NCBI GenBank assembly: GCA_019243595.1
Contig: JAFAUA010000090.1
Location: 1 to 27,212, forward strand
Source: Acidimicrobiia bacterium
GTDB taxonomy: Bacteria; Actinomycetota; Acidimicrobiia; Acidimicrobiales; AC-14
Reading direction: 5' to 3'
Length of the DNA: 27,212 nt
Shown here one piece after another: positions 12,443 through 16,695 of this stretch. Made by a program: the position numbers and the translations under genes. Numbering within the stretch: the stretch's first letter is position 1; every line of letters starts with the position of its first letter. The notes under the pieces are model-generated. The model saw only the letters and a program-made list of their open reading frames with translations, was not told the DNA's origin and ran no database searches.

Positions 12443-13020
12443 CGGTGCTGCGCTGGGGGTGCCGTCGTCGGCGTCGTGAGCTTGGAGGCCGCCGTCTTGG
12501 CGGGAACTGCGGTCGTCGCCGTTGTCTTGGCCACGGACGGCTTGGCGGCGACGGGCGTGGGCTTGAGCACGACAGGCTTGGCGGCGACGGTCGTCGGCGT
12601 GACCTCGGGCGCCGGAACCGGGGCGCCGGTCGGCCCGTCGGGCGAGAGGTAGTGGACCGTCACCGGCGGCACCATGCCGAGCTTCTGGGCGGCATCGACG
12701 ACGCGCTCGGGCGATTCCAGCTCCGCGACCTGAAGCCGCAGCTGCTGCTGCTTCACCGAGGCGGCATCGGCCCTGCTTTGCAGATGCTGGATGGCGAGCT
12801 CGTTCTGGGTGAGCACCACGTGGAAGGCGACAACGCCGAACAGGGCGGCGGCGATGGCGACGCCCGTGAGCACGACCACCCGCCGGGCCCGGCGCTGGCG
12901 CGCCCGCTCGGTGATGTAGCCCTGAGGGACGACCTGCAGGTGCCGCCGCTCGGCGGGCGCCGGGGTGACGTCGGGGCGGAGGCTGCGATCGGGCCGCGCG
13001 GGTGCGAGGCGAGTCGCCAT
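12439..13020 (-). CDS. ftsL: Cell division protein FtsL-like, with long extracytoplasmic tail
   Basis: A 193-residue bitopic protein between rsmH and ftsI, the standard ftsL position. The cytoplasmic N-terminus (about 1-50) is Arg/Pro rich and is followed by one membrane segment (VVVLTGVAIAAALFGVVAFHVVL). A short heptad-like stretch comes next (QNELAIQHLQSRADAASVKQQQLRLQVAELESPERVVDAAQKLGM), the coiled coil by which FtsL pairs with FtsB/DivIC. After about residue 125 comes a low-complexity tail of Pro/Thr/Ala/Lys repeats to the C-terminus, longer than in most FtsL proteins. ATG 13020 shares its A with the rsmH stop (TGATG), and the stop overlaps ftsI, so all three are translationally coupled. 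The identification rests on topology and position. Confidence 0.88.
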   Translation of the reverse strand: MATRLAPARPDRSLRPDVTPAPAERRHLQVVPQGYITERARQRRARRVVVLTGVAIAAALFGVVAFHVVLTQNELAIQHLQSRADAASVKQQQLRLQVAELESPERVVDAAQKLGMVPPVTVHYLSPDGPTGAPVPAPEVTPTTVAAKPVVLKPTPVAAKPSVAKTTATTAVPAKTAASKLTTPTTAPPAQHR

Positions 13021-13967
13021 CAGGCGGCGTCCACCGCGTCGAGCTTCTCGACGGCGCGCAGACGGGCGCTCTCGGCCCGCGGGTTGGAAGCCGTCTCGGC
13101 AGCCGACGGCTTGCGGGCGCCTCGCCGCAGGAGCCGGACCTTCGGCGTGGCGCCGCACACGCACGGCAAGCCCGGCGGGCAGACGCAGCCACCGGTCTCC
13201 GCCTCGCGGAAACGATCCTTGACGATGCGATCCTCTCCCGAGTGGTAGGCCAGCACGGCGCAACGGCCGCCCGGAACCAGGACGTCGATCGCCTGGTCCA
13301 GCGCCGGACCGAGAACATCGAGCTCGTTGTTCACTTCGATGCGCAGGGCCTGGAACGTGCGCTTGGCCGGATGGCCGCCGCGCCGGCGGGCGGGAGCGGG
13401 GATGGCGTCGCGGATGACGTCGACGAGTTCGGAGGTCGAGTTCAACGGACGCGTGGCGACGATGGCGTTGGCGATGCGACCGGCGAAGCGTTCGTCGCCG
13501 TAGTCGTGGAGCACTTGAGTGAGGCGGGCGGCGGGATAGGTGTTGACGACGTCGGCGGCGGTGAGCGATTGGCTGCGATCCATGCGCATGTCGAGCGGCG
13601 CGTCCTGGCTGTAGCTGAAGCCCCGGTCGGCGTGGTCGACCTGGGGCGAGCTGACGCCGACATCGAAGAGCACCGCCGTCACGTTCTGCTCTCCCCCCTC
13701 GTTCACCATCGCCTTCAGCCGGTCGAATCGGGCTCGGCGCAGGGTGACCCTGTTCCCGAAGCCCGCGAGCGTGACGTGTGCTGCAACCAGGGCCTCCTCG
13801 TCGCGATCCAGTCCGAGGAGGCGATGTTGGGGAAGAGCCTCGAGGAGCGCCCGAGCGTGCCCGCCGCCGCCAACGGTGGCGTCGACGATCAAGCCGGGGG
13901 GCACGGGCCGAAACAGTTCGACGATCTCGTCGAGCATCACCGGCCGGTGCTCGTACCCCTCGCTCAC
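13020..13967 (-). CDS. rsmH: 16S rRNA (cytosine-1402-N4)-methyltransferase RsmH (MraW)
   Basis: A 315-residue SAM-dependent methyltransferase that modifies C1402 in the ribosomal decoding centre. It opens YEHRPVMLDEIVELFRP and has the SAM-binding loop DATVGGGGHARALLE (29-43), GLDRDEEAL, FDVGVSSPQVDHADRGFSY, RRGGHPAKRTFQALRIEVNNEL and AYHSGEDRIVKDRFRE, all family hallmarks. The start is GTG 13967. Unusually, this GTG lies inside one arm of a 24-position inverted repeat and overlaps the stop of a short upstream frame. The 189-base gap from mraZ is much longer than any other junction in this operon, so initiation is probably controlled. Confidence 0.96.
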   Translation of the reverse strand: MSEGYEHRPVMLDEIVELFRPVPPGLIVDATVGGGGHARALLEALPQHRLLGLDRDEEALVAAHVTLAGFGNRVTLRRARFDRLKAMVNEGGEQNVTAVLFDVGVSSPQVDHADRGFSYSQDAPLDMRMDRSQSLTAADVVNTYPAARLTQVLHDYGDERFAGRIANAIVATRPLNSTSELVDVIRDAIPAPARRRGGHPAKRTFQALRIEVNNELDVLGPALDQAIDVLVPGGRCAVLAYHSGEDRIVKDRFREAETGGCVCPPGLPCVCGATPKVRLLRRGARKPSAAETASNPRAESARLRAVEKLDAVDAA

Positions 13968-14079
13968 CCCCAGCCCCCCGACCGAGCCGGAACCGTCGGG
14001 ATGTCTCCCCGATCGATGTGATGGAAGCGGGCGGAGTAGGGGCCTTCCACCATGGCGGTCGGGGGGCTGGGCGTGAGCG
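13961..14079 (-). promoter_or_regulatory. Long inverted repeat enclosing the rsmH start
   Basis: Arms 13961-13984 and 14056-14079 are complementary at 23 of 24 positions: 16 bp and 7 bp around one mismatch at 13968/14072. In the mRNA the 3' arm holds the G-rich region before rsmH and its GTG (13967-13965), so the ribosome binding region would be closed by a very GC-rich stem. The 71-base loop contains ATG 14053 and a smaller hairpin. The structure is read directly; the regulatory role is inferred. Confidence 0.65.
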
Positions 14080-14092
14080 GGGAGCCGTTCAT
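13964..14092 (-). CDS. Candidate 42-codon leader ORF before rsmH
   Basis: A short frame from ATG 14092 (or ATG 14053, 29 codons) ends with TGA overlapping the rsmH GTG as GTGA. The C-terminal part, MVEGPYSARFHHIDRGDIPT, looks protein-like rather than random. It runs through both arms of the inverted repeat that contains the rsmH start, so a ribosome translating it would open the stem and terminate on that start. The ribosome binding site is weak (GCAGGG before ATG 14092). I recognise no family; it may be a regulatory leader peptide, a small protein, or chance. Confidence 0.4.
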   Translation of the reverse strand: MNGSPLTPSPPTAMVEGPYSARFHHIDRGDIPTVPARSGGWG

Positions 14093-14156
14093 CGGGCCCT
14101 GCTCATCTGGTGCTCTCGTCGCTCGTGCCGCGTCCTCCTCTCGAAGCTCGTTCGTT

Positions 14157-14597
14157 TCAGCTCGGCGCCGAGGCGCCGTCTCCTGCGGCGAGGCGCTGCT
14201 CGCCAACTTCCTTCGTCCGCTGCCAGTTGGCGGCGTCCCAGATCTCGATGTGGTCGTAGAGGCCGACGACGACGACGTCGCGCTCGAGGCCGGCGAAGTC
14301 ACGCAGGGCCTGGGAGATCGCAACCCGTCCCTGCTTGTCGGGGCTGGCCTCCATGGCGCCGGCGAAGAAGGCGCGCTGCACGTCGCGTTCGCCGCGCCGT
14401 GCTCGATCTCTGATCTCAGTTGCCTTCACGTCGAACTCCTCGGGGCGCCAGAGGGCGAGGCACCCGTCCTCTTCAGTGGTGACGTACGCCTGGTCGCCCA
14501 GGTGCTCCCGAAAGCGTGCTGGGAGGATGAAGCGGCCCTTGGCGTCGAGCGCGTGCTGATACTCGCCGAGGAACGGCGCTCGCCTCCCGTCCACCAC
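14157..14597 (-). CDS. mraZ: Transcriptional regulator MraZ
   Basis: A 146-residue protein with two SpoVT/AbrB-like repeats. The first is FLGEYQHALDAKGRFILPARFR (residues 9-30) and the second contains PDKQGRVAISQALRDFAGL (86-104); both hold the D-x-K/Q-G-R signature. MraZ forms ring oligomers, binds repeats before its own gene and controls dcw transcription. Family members normally start MFLG, but here the codon before FLG is CCG. The nearest in-frame starts are GTG 14597 and GTG 14594, adding eight or seven residues. A GGGAGG at 14588-14583 sits after those GTGs, at the distance expected for a start near the usual position, which is odd. A promoter lies about 60 bases upstream. Confidence 0.92.
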   Translation of the reverse strand: MVDGRRAPFLGEYQHALDAKGRFILPARFREHLGDQAYVTTEEDGCLALWRPEEFDVKATEIRDRARRGERDVQRAFFAGAMEASPDKQGRVAISQALRDFAGLERDVVVVGLYDHIEIWDAANWQRTKEVGEQRLAAGDGASAPS

Positions 14598-14658
14598 TTC
14601 ACGACCACCAACCCGTCCATGGCACGCCCGGCCCCTCCCTGCTGCACCACTTCGCACC

Positions 14659-14687
14659 ACCCTACGCCCCAACACTCCACTCGTCAA
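14659..14687 (-). promoter_or_regulatory. Candidate dcw operon promoter (mraZ)
   Basis: On the minus strand TTGACG (14687-14682), a 17-base spacer and TAGGGT (14664-14659) match a SigA-type promoter well. Transcription would start near 14652, leaving a leader of about 55 bases before mraZ. It is the best promoter seen before the run of overlapping dcw genes and lies in the 129-base gap shared with divergent murT. Confidence 0.65.
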
Positions 14688-14726
14688 CCCCGCCACTCCA
14701 GGCGGCCTCCACGCGAGACTGCGGGC

Positions 14727-15968
14727 GTGCCCCAGTCCGCCCTCCCCGTCCGGACCCGGTTCGCGACCGGCGCCGGGCTGGCCGTCGCCGGGCTGTCCCG
14801 GCGGCTCGGGGCCGGCGAGGGGTCGGTCATCGGAGGCCGGGTCGTGCTGGCGGTGGACCCCGGTGCCCTGGAGCGGTTGGCGGCGGGGCGGACGATTGCC
14901 CTGGTCTCGGGAACCAACGGCAAGACGACGACGACCCGGATGCTGGCGGCCGCCATGGAGACCCAGGGCGGCGTGGTGACCAACTCGACGGGGGCCAACC
15001 TGCTGAGCGGGCTGGTGACGACGCTCGCCCGTGGCGCCGCCGAGGCGCCCGCCGTCCTCGAAGCCGACGAGGGCCTGCTGCCCAAGGCCGTCGCCGAGCT
15101 CCATCCGACCGTGGTGCTCCTGCTCAACCTCAGCCGCGACCAGCTCGACCGCATCGGCGAGGTGCGGATCCACGCCCAGCGCTGGCGGGCTGCGCTCGAG
15201 TCGAGCCCGTCGACAACCGTGGTCGCCAACGCCGACGACCCGCTGGTGGTCTGGGCCGCCGGCCTCGCCCGTCAGGTCACGTGGGTCGGCACCGGCCAGC
15301 GGTGGCGGCTCGACGCGTACTCCTGTCCGAACTGCGGCGAGAAGATCGAGTGGACGGACGAGGGCACGTGGGCGTGTACGAACTGCTCACTGGCACGCCC
15401 GGTCCCCCAGCTGACTCTCGACGGAGAGGACGTGGTTCTGGCCGACGGCCGCCGGCTGCGTCTCGACCTCAAGCTGCCCGGGTGGCCGAATCGGGCGAAC
15501 GCGGTGATGGCCGCCGCCGGGGCCGAGGTGTTGGGCGTCGACGTCGTGGACGGCCTGCGCGGCGTCGGCACCGTGAGCCACGTCGCCGGCCGCTACCAGG
15601 TCGTGTCGGTCGGCGGTGCACGCGTGCGTCTGCTGCTGGCCAAGAACCCGGCCGGGTGGGCCGAAGCGCTCGAGCTCATCCGCCCCGCGCCGATGCCCGT
15701 CGTCGTCGGGATCAACGCCCGCATCCCCGACGGCCGCGATCCCTCGTGGCTGTGGGACGTGCCGTTCGAGCGCTTGCGGGGCCGGCTGGTGATCGCGACT
15801 GGTGACCGCGGCCGGGACCTCGCCGTGCGCCTTCGCTACGCGGGGGTCGAGCACCGCTTCGTCGAGGGCTACGCCGCAGCCGTGCGCGCCACCGGCGCCG
15901 ACGACATCGACCTGGCCGCCAACTACACGTCGTTCCAGGACGCCCGGCGGGAGCTGGCGCGTGCCTGA
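14727..15968 (+). CDS. murT: Lipid II isoglutaminyl synthase, MurT subunit
   Basis: A 413-residue Mur-ligase-like subunit. With GatD it converts the alpha-carboxyl of D-Glu in lipid II to the amide (D-iso-Gln) using ATP and ammonia. It has the Mur P-loop VSGTNGKTTTTRML (Lys66), NSTGANLLSGL, LNLSRDQLDRIGE, a four-cysteine zinc ribbon inserted in the middle domain (Cys200, 203, 217, 220), and a C-terminal DUF1727 domain with INARIPDGRDPSWLWDVPFE, whose aspartates include the residue proposed to complete the GatD active site. The GTG at 14727 starts at the family's usual N-terminus. The stop overlaps the gatD start by eight bases. The gene is divergent from mraZ. Confidence 0.95.
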   Translation: MPQSALPVRTRFATGAGLAVAGLSRRLGAGEGSVIGGRVVLAVDPGALERLAAGRTIALVSGTNGKTTTTRMLAAAMETQGGVVTNSTGANLLSGLVTTLARGAAEAPAVLEADEGLLPKAVAELHPTVVLLLNLSRDQLDRIGEVRIHAQRWRAALESSPSTTVVANADDPLVVWAAGLARQVTWVGTGQRWRLDAYSCPNCGEKIEWTDEGTWACTNCSLARPVPQLTLDGEDVVLADGRRLRLDLKLPGWPNRANAVMAAAGAEVLGVDVVDGLRGVGTVSHVAGRYQVVSVGGARVRLLLAKNPAGWAEALELIRPAPMPVVVGINARIPDGRDPSWLWDVPFERLRGRLVIATGDRGRDLAVRLRYAGVEHRFVEGYAAAVRATGADDIDLAANYTSFQDARRELARA

Positions 15969-16695
15969 GAGCACGTTGACGATCGCGCTGCTCTATCCGG
16001 AGCTGCTCGGCACCTACGGCGACGGCGGCAACGCGACCGTTCTCGCCGAGCGACTGCGGTGGCGCGGGGTCGACGCCGACGTGCTCACGCTGGGCGCCGG
16101 GGACACCGTGCCCACGTCCTGCGACATCTACTTGATGGGTGGCGGCGAGGACGGTCCCCAGGCCCTGGCCGCGCGCGAGCTCAGCGAAAGCGGTGCTCTC
16201 CATACCGCTGTCGACAACGGCGCCGTCGTCTTCGGGACGTGCGCCGGCATCCAGGTGCTGGGCCACGAGTTCGCCAACCCGGACGGGTCATCGCACCCGG
16301 GCCTCGGCCTGCTCGACGTGCGCACGGTCCGCGGTACCGGCCGCCGCGCCATCGGCGAACTGTTGGCGGAGCCGATGGTCGACGGCCTGCCAACGCTGAC
16401 CGGCTTCGAGAACCACGGCGCCGTCACCCACCTCGGTCCGGGCGTGAAGCCGCTGGGCCGCGTCGTGCACGGCGTTGGCAACGGCGGTGGCGACGGAAGC
16501 GAGGGCGCCGTCTCCGGCCACATCCTCGCCACCTATATGCACGGCCCCGCCCTTGCCCGCAACCCAGCGCTCGCCGACCTGCTGCTGTCCTGGGTCGTCG
16601 GCGATATGAAGCCGCTGGACGACAGCGAGGTGGACGAGCTGAGAGCTGAACGTTTGCGCTTCGTCAAGCGAGGCCGCTGGCGCCGCAACCGCTGA
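15961..16695 (+). CDS. gatD: Lipid II isoglutaminyl synthase, glutamine amidotransferase subunit GatD
   Basis: A 244-residue class I (triad) glutamine amidotransferase that releases ammonia from glutamine for MurT. The nucleophile is Cys94 in VFGTCAGIQVLGHEF and the catalytic histidine is His194 in ATYMHGPALARNP. LYPELLGTYGDGGN near the N-terminus and GFENHGAVTHLG are characteristic of GatD rather than cobyric acid synthase. The C-terminus is basic (RGRWRRNR). The start is GTG 15961 inside the murT end, so the two subunits are translationally coupled. It converges on the lipoate-ligase-like gene, with an inverted repeat in between. Confidence 0.95.
   Translation: MPESTLTIALLYPELLGTYGDGGNATVLAERLRWRGVDADVLTLGAGDTVPTSCDIYLMGGGEDGPQALAARELSESGALHTAVDNGAVVFGTCAGIQVLGHEFANPDGSSHPGLGLLDVRTVRGTGRRAIGELLAEPMVDGLPTLTGFENHGAVTHLGPGVKPLGRVVHGVGNGGGDGSEGAVSGHILATYMHGPALARNPALADLLLSWVVGDMKPLDDSEVDELRAERLRFVKRGRWRRNR

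Follow-up and report, generated by a model that had tools for sequence, protein, structure and literature searches.

The gap between mraZ and rsmH in the window (the whole 27,212-nt stretch of Acidimicrobiia DNA analysed here) carries a conserved structured leader RNA at 13955..14083 on the minus strand, and the inverted repeat that had drawn attention to this site is its outer stem, designated P1. The element, delimited by its covariance-model match, covariation and fold, is an rsmH leader of the mraW kind, for which no previous description was found in the literature; as the search covered open-access sources only, that absence is weak evidence. The stem over the rsmH start, together with a hairpin tip resembling the ribosomal target of the encoded enzyme, suggests that the enzyme may limit its own production. 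Downstream lies rsmH (mraW; 13020..13967, minus strand; TIGR00006, 306.8 bits, cut-off 154.3), the gene for the 16S rRNA m4C1402 methyltransferase, and upstream lies mraZ (14157..14609 as scanned, minus strand; TIGR00242, 105.3 bits, cut-off 98.35), with 73 nt between the end of its stop codon and P1. Both are part of a division/cell-wall gene cluster in which murE, murF, mraY, murD and ftsW, each above a curated cut-off, and an ftsI-like gene, below curated cut-offs, occupy the rsmH strand. The divergent genes adjoining mraZ (window 14052-16695, plus strand) are murT-like and gatD-like, with scores under the curated cut-offs of the lipid II isoglutaminyl synthase models. The source assembly is 81% complete.

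Several features given in the preliminary description can be read directly in the sequence: the arms 13961-13984 and 14056-14079 are complementary at 23 of 24 positions, the rsmH GTG (13967-13965, minus strand) is inside the 3' arm of the repeat, and a 42-codon frame from ATG 14092 is open across the structure, its TGA overlapping the rsmH GTG (the same frame was also found in the ORF list, from an earlier TTG). That description did not recognise the repeat as one helix of three in a structured RNA whose most conserved part lies between the arms. A repeat search extended the arms to 27 nt (13958-13984 and 14056-14082, 93% complementary), and the fold of 14083-13955 reached -86.6 kcal/mol (z = -6.13; equalled by none of 200 dinucleotide shuffles), compared with z = -2.73 and 2 of 200 shuffles as good for the wider stretch 14160-13940. 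P1 has 28 pairs between a 5' arm at 14054..14083 and a 3' arm at 13957..13987, both on the minus strand and both identified from the repeat and covariation, with the fold as additional evidence for the 3' arm, in which are found a G-rich stretch and, at model offset -13, the GTG start codon. The P2 hairpin (14020..14051, minus strand), also identified from covariation and with its coordinates taken from the sequence, is an 8-bp stem of 14051-14044 with 14027-14020 and, in the window, a 16-nt loop containing CCCCUACUCCGCCCG; the loop core ACUCCGCCC, at 14029..14037 on the same strand, was defined by loop conservation and by comparison with 16S rRNA, and its C matching 16S C1402 is at 14031. The P3 hairpin (13993..14016, minus strand), with 10 pairs and a GAGAMA-type loop, was recognised by covariation, and its coordinates come from the fold. 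The window-type element is thus branched; P3 is absent in several Acidimicrobiia families, and there the element is unbranched, consisting of P1 and P2. A further P2 subtype, with an inserted piece (the CUUCUGCCCCA region) 5' of the ACUCCGCCC core, was seen at five loci (L043, L050, L053, L160 and L182).

Covariation of the stem in relatives is strong. In alignment A1, a 50-sequence seed aligned with MAFFT and not fitted to a structure, two-sided changes occurred in 30 of the 34 predicted pairs. Alignment A2, obtained through the covariance model R1 and holding the 99 copies that passed among 100 chosen sources with matches, showed two-sided changes in 45 of 46 pairs (27/28 in P1 and 8/8 in P2), counts that lean towards the model because A2 was fitted to it. 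Pairing was retained in 91.3% of the A2 cells, against 74.7% after shuffling and 33.5–46.8% after sliding, and the covariation score was 0.518, against 0.216 shuffled and 0.08–0.14 slid; in the 49 A2 rows from outside the seed, 89.7% of cells pair. The element was assigned to the minus strand because R1 scores the window locus (L001) at 116.3 bits on that strand, far above the 34.8 bits of its plus-strand mirror; the match itself (E 4.8e-26 in its own genome) arises by construction, L001 being in the A1 seed. A strong G+C-rich hairpin of this sort might also be an intrinsic terminator or a chance palindrome, an explanation to which we attach practically no weight: the class-wide covariation refutes chance, no terminator-like sites were found in 13700-14760, and no U-run follows the stem.

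The P2 loop is the best conserved part of the element, and its conservation has to be read in the light of how the seed was assembled. The A1 sequences were chosen by a pattern containing CTCCGCC, so that the CTCCGCC columns look invariant in A1; the pattern matched 63 of 134 loci, of which 57 were left after removal of near-duplicates and 50 entered A1 (left out were L043, L050, L053, L127, L128, L160 and L182). Among the 49 non-seed rows of A2, 34 have exactly CTCCGCC, some of these rows having matched the pattern and been left out as near-duplicates or structural outliers. In 40 class loci used as a less biased check, nevertheless found by models from CTCCGCC-pattern seeds, the P2 core reads ACTCCGCCCGCT in 36, differs from it only at the first or last letter in three more, and is ACTTCGCCCGCC in one. 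Three letters of the core are invariant across A2, namely the U and the two Cs flanking the G (97/97 letters, with 2 gaps). Loop variants do occur (CUCCACC, CUUCGCC and CUCCGCA), and some copies are without the loop; A+T-richer copies at L085, L150 and L156 have a CUCCAC loop, so the conserved G is not absolute. Family f65, likewise located with such models and having genomes of about 1 Mb and regions of 32–35% G+C, keeps the loop as ACTCCGCCC in 12/12 loci (L273–L284), the P2 core reading ACTCCGCCCA in 12/12. The G+C-rich loop of these small, AT-rich genomes, together with an AUG paired in P1, makes them a good natural test of which bases are important.

Searches of Rfam 15 gave no credible match for the element, riboswitch families included, and the sub-threshold rows were only of miRNA, snoRNA and viral type. 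This bears on a possible small-ligand riboswitch, with a pocket formed by the P2 and P3 loops for a compound such as S-adenosylmethionine, the cosubstrate of RsmH. Both loops are conserved and the start codon is buried in half of the copies, as such a switch would have it; the lack of an Rfam riboswitch match and the loss of P3 from whole families in which the P2 loop is unchanged, which argues against a shared pocket, make it improbable. A loop–loop pairing between P2 (CUCC) and P3 (GGAG) was dropped on the same distribution of P3. Base pairing between the P2 loop and the G-tract near the rsmH ribosome-binding site was likewise set aside on inspection, since it would not need the loop's invariant G and U.

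The element is widespread in the class. R1 matched 197 of 296 Acidimicrobiia genomes and R2, a model without P3, matched 151 of 296 (both at E<=1e-6), giving a union of 242/296 when the two 296-genome draws are taken as the same. Over 346 sampled Actinomycetota genomes R2, which misses many R1 finds, matched 13, all of them Acidimicrobiia. The pattern CCCC-N0-3-ACTCCGCCCGCTT was present in 57 of 148 class genomes, in 57/57 places inside the element, and its reversed control in none. The next gene was rsmH in all 59 copies found by model only and read (40/40 and 19/19); the rsmH neighbourhood of the 99 A2 copies is by construction, because these were fetched through rsmH. An rsmH match was obtained in 114 genomes, and the upstream DNA of 110 was examined (all except G013, G018, G040 and G071). 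RsmH identity to the relatives was 61–69%, and 83% for G001; the mraZ–rsmH gap of these relatives held the same element in most loci first read. Two further genomes belong to the same genus as the source: G001 has the element (locus L002) and G002 is without an rsmH match. Among 30 loci classed as divergent or element-less, ten have an mraZ–rsmH gap of less than 56 nt and no R1 match, several others retain a long stem tipped by a related loop, at L111 no element is visible in a gap of 151 nt, and L117, L170, L178 and L195 were not delimitable. At three loci (G057:C10, G073:C209 and G050:C135) the rsmH match came in two pieces within one long open frame, the joint being at about query residues 81–97, which suggests a putative in-frame insertion within RsmH. 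Overall, we consider it probable that the element is a class-wide, cis-acting leader RNA for translational control of rsmH in the Acidimicrobiia.

How the start codon sits in the element was assessed in the 132 of 139 copies in which rsmH was placed, with starts assigned by position. In 66 of these, the window included, an in-frame ATG (57) or GTG (9) is at model offset -13, paired in P1, and the three pairs at this codon form in 278 of 297 cells; between this codon and the conserved RsmH N-terminus, 47 of the 66 copies are free of further in-frame starts and 19 are not. The other 66 have no in-frame ATG or GTG at -13, and their candidate starts are elsewhere, mostly downstream and up to about 180 nt away. 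Simple occlusion is therefore not the whole story in that half, where the element must act otherwise or via an upstream frame. At L012 and L013 rsmH begins downstream of the stem; the -13 ATG there starts a very short ORF, with a TGA that overlaps the ATG of rsmH, and this may be a coupled upstream ORF. The scattered starts also have a place in a different account, in which P1 is chiefly an RNA-processing site whose 28-bp stem would be cut by RNase III or act as a decay barrier separating mraZ from rsmH mRNA, with the loop as a guide for a protein or the RNase. The length and near-perfection of P1, its position between two genes of one cluster and the half of the copies whose start codon is not at the fixed P1 position are in keeping with this; the near-invariant loop and the fixed placing of the start codon in 66/132 copies are left unexplained by it, and we consider it unlikely.

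The preliminary description had proposed that the stem blocks rsmH until it is opened by a ribosome that translates the leader ORF and then re-initiates at rsmH. A stem over the start is supported, by its covariation in relatives and by the start codon paired in 66/132 copies; the peptide and the re-initiation are not. In the window the proposal draws on the open 42-codon frame ending on GTGA (13964..14092, minus strand), which we judge to be a by-product of the RNA, since the frame is not conserved. Among the 117 of 139 copies with an exact CTCCGCC and a placed rsmH, the frame encoding PYSARF coincides with that of rsmH in 62, the remaining copies being divided 32 and 23 between the two alternatives, and in 50 copies it enters rsmH in frame with no stop. 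In 19 copies the first stop of this frame falls no more than 8 nt from the start-codon position, and in 8 of them it overlaps the rsmH start codon; this is no excess, the corresponding counts for the two other frames being 25 and 15 of the 117; no sign of selection on the PYSARF frame or its stop was thus seen in these copies. Single-base length changes occur within the element, and close before ATG 14092 there is only a weak AGGG, a stronger AGGAGG being about 45 nt off. The apparent conservation of the peptide is attributable to the conserved RNA loop beneath it. Related genomes thus break the leader frame freely while keeping complementary, covarying arms, and we regard translation of the leader as a switch for rsmH as highly improbable. 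A leader-peptide attenuator was likewise rejected, a conserved frame with a stop adjoining the gene start not having been found. In erm-type attenuators a leader peptide controls an rRNA methyltransferase gene; as in those systems, a stem here covers the start codon of such a gene, and unlike them the element is without a conserved leader peptide.

On the model that we favour, a closed P1 would keep ribosomes off the rsmH start and, by coupling, might also reduce expression of the division/cell-wall genes further downstream, while a trans-acting factor reading the P2 loop would set how often P1 is closed. The candidate for this factor is RsmH: when not engaged with newly made 30S subunits, the enzyme would bind the loop and so repress translation of its own mRNA. 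RsmH is proposed on account of the likeness between the loop ACUCCGCCC(G) and the enzyme's target in 16S rRNA, ACACCGCCC(G), around C1402; autogenous control via substrate mimicry is our leading reading, as yet unproven and held tentatively, at less than even odds. Autogenous translational control by rRNA mimicry has precedents in the rRNA methyltransferases ErmC and KsgA and in ribosomal proteins, as with the S15 leaders. The present case shares with them a leader before the gene of an rRNA-binding enzyme and a sequence resembling the rRNA target of that enzyme, and differs in the RNA and the enzyme (RsmH), for which binding and feedback are predicted.

The loop ACUCCGCCCG agrees with 16S ACACCGCCCG at 9 of 10 positions, with the RsmH-methylated C in register. 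16S rRNA was sought in 13 genomes (G000 included), four of which matched, with full-length sequences from G008, G011 and G012; in these three relatives ACTCCGCCCG reached 9/10 at C1402 only, once per 16S. No 23S window equalled the 9/10 of the 10-mer in the three 23S loci (one short) taken from G011 and G012. The significance of the likeness depends on where the core borders are drawn, because the number of shuffled cores as good at the C1402-covering window varies among the six cores tried, from 13 of 3000 (0.4%) for the 10-mer through 88 for the 9-mer, 116 for the 11-mer, 221 for the 13-mer and 297 for the 14-mer to 320 (11%) for the 8-mer. The 9-mer was equalled in 23S at two of the three loci and the 11-mer at one, and loop queries of 15 and 18 nt do not select the 16S decoding site. 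Counting against mimicry, the position of A1398 is always U in the element (97/97 letters). Mimicry was not found beyond the Acidimicrobiia, CCGCCC occurring before rsmH in 6 of 57 non-class loci where 7.6 were expected, and the Actinomycetes loop CUUCCCC has its best rRNA matches elsewhere than at the RsmH site. The human RsmH homologue METTL15 is reported to bind h44 RNA at about 1–2 uM with no sequence preference (PMC10828496), which also counts against recognition of the loop by RsmH.

The closest known counterpart is the mraW RNA (RF01746), which also lies directly upstream of rsmH/mraW in Actinomycetota and also has a long G+C-rich stem whose tip is conserved and C-rich. Set beside the unbranched long hairpin of the mraW RNA, the window-type element is branched and the P3-less families are not. 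The two differ in the loop, ACUUCCCC in the mraW RNA and ACUCCGCCC in the Acidimicrobiia element, and in P3, which the mraW RNA is without and the window element has; the covariance models do not match either way, save for one weak R2 match. RF01746 reached its gathering score (50 bits) nowhere in the window, at none of seven Acidimicrobiia loci and at 7 of the 13 Actinomycetes loci scanned, and it gave no row at E<=10 for window 13900-14200 or for 20 Acidimicrobiia loci, 19 of which have the element. Conversely, R2 on 18 Actinomycetes loci gave one rsmH-leader match, at the Amycolatopsis mraW site (L078 2849-2937, E 3.4e-4); given this weak cross-match and the shared C-rich tip, the two RNAs may be distant homologues. 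The sequence CUUCCCC was found within 300 nt before rsmH in 18 of 57 non-Acidimicrobiia loci, with 0.64 expected in mononucleotide shuffles, and these 18 are exactly the Actinomycetes loci searched with R2 (L055, L058, L059, L065, L066, L071, L072, L078, L081, L086, L093, L095, L096, L098, L101, L105, L107 and L110); of 13 that were folded, 12 placed it at the tip of a hairpin, the exception, L059, being a stretch cut short. Since CUUCCCC is present in 18/18 of these Actinomycetes loci and RF01746 matches in 7/13, the mraW RNA family probably extends beyond what its Rfam model captures.

These observations give substance to another interpretation, in which the P2 loop is read by some other RNA-binding factor and the 16S likeness is due to chance. 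The element and the mraW RNA would then have branched from a single ancient rsmH leader, their C-rich loops (ACUCCGCCC and ACUUCCCC) being related. The frequency of CUUCCCC before rsmH, its place at hairpin tips and the Amycolatopsis match speak for such a common origin, whereas the reciprocal search with RF01746 failed in the 20 Acidimicrobiia loci, R2 matched just the one of 18 Actinomycetes leaders, and we know of no candidate for such a factor. We take this to be a serious possibility, somewhat short of an even chance. As to the mraW RNA itself, the motif is listed for Actinomycetales (Weinberg et al. 2010, PMC2864571), is assigned to an mRNA leader in C. glutamicum (PMC4046766), is reported as transcribed in Corynebacterium diphtheriae, where it is noted to lie upstream of the mraW transcription start (PMC5784534), and was in 2017 still said to be of unknown function (PMC5640933). 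The reported C. diphtheriae position disfavours a plain leader role there.

In its fullest form the autogenous model would have RsmH recognise in its own mRNA a hairpin that copies the 16S decoding site (ACUCCGCCC standing in for ACACCGCCC), hold P1 closed over the start codon and perhaps methylate the equivalent of C1402; unmodified 30S subunits would compete for RsmH and free the mRNA, so that ribosome assembly would set expression, and in other Actinomycetota the mraW RNA would represent this circuit too, its loop having drifted. This complete scheme is possible, though we consider it doubtful. The present work adds a class-wide structured RNA, unmatched in searches of Rfam 15, at the locus of the orphan mraW motif described in 2010, and provides a testable loop and a concrete candidate regulator in RsmH. 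If the circuit is true, the state of 30S assembly would be linked to the division/cell-wall gene cluster, with rsmH at the head of the operon.
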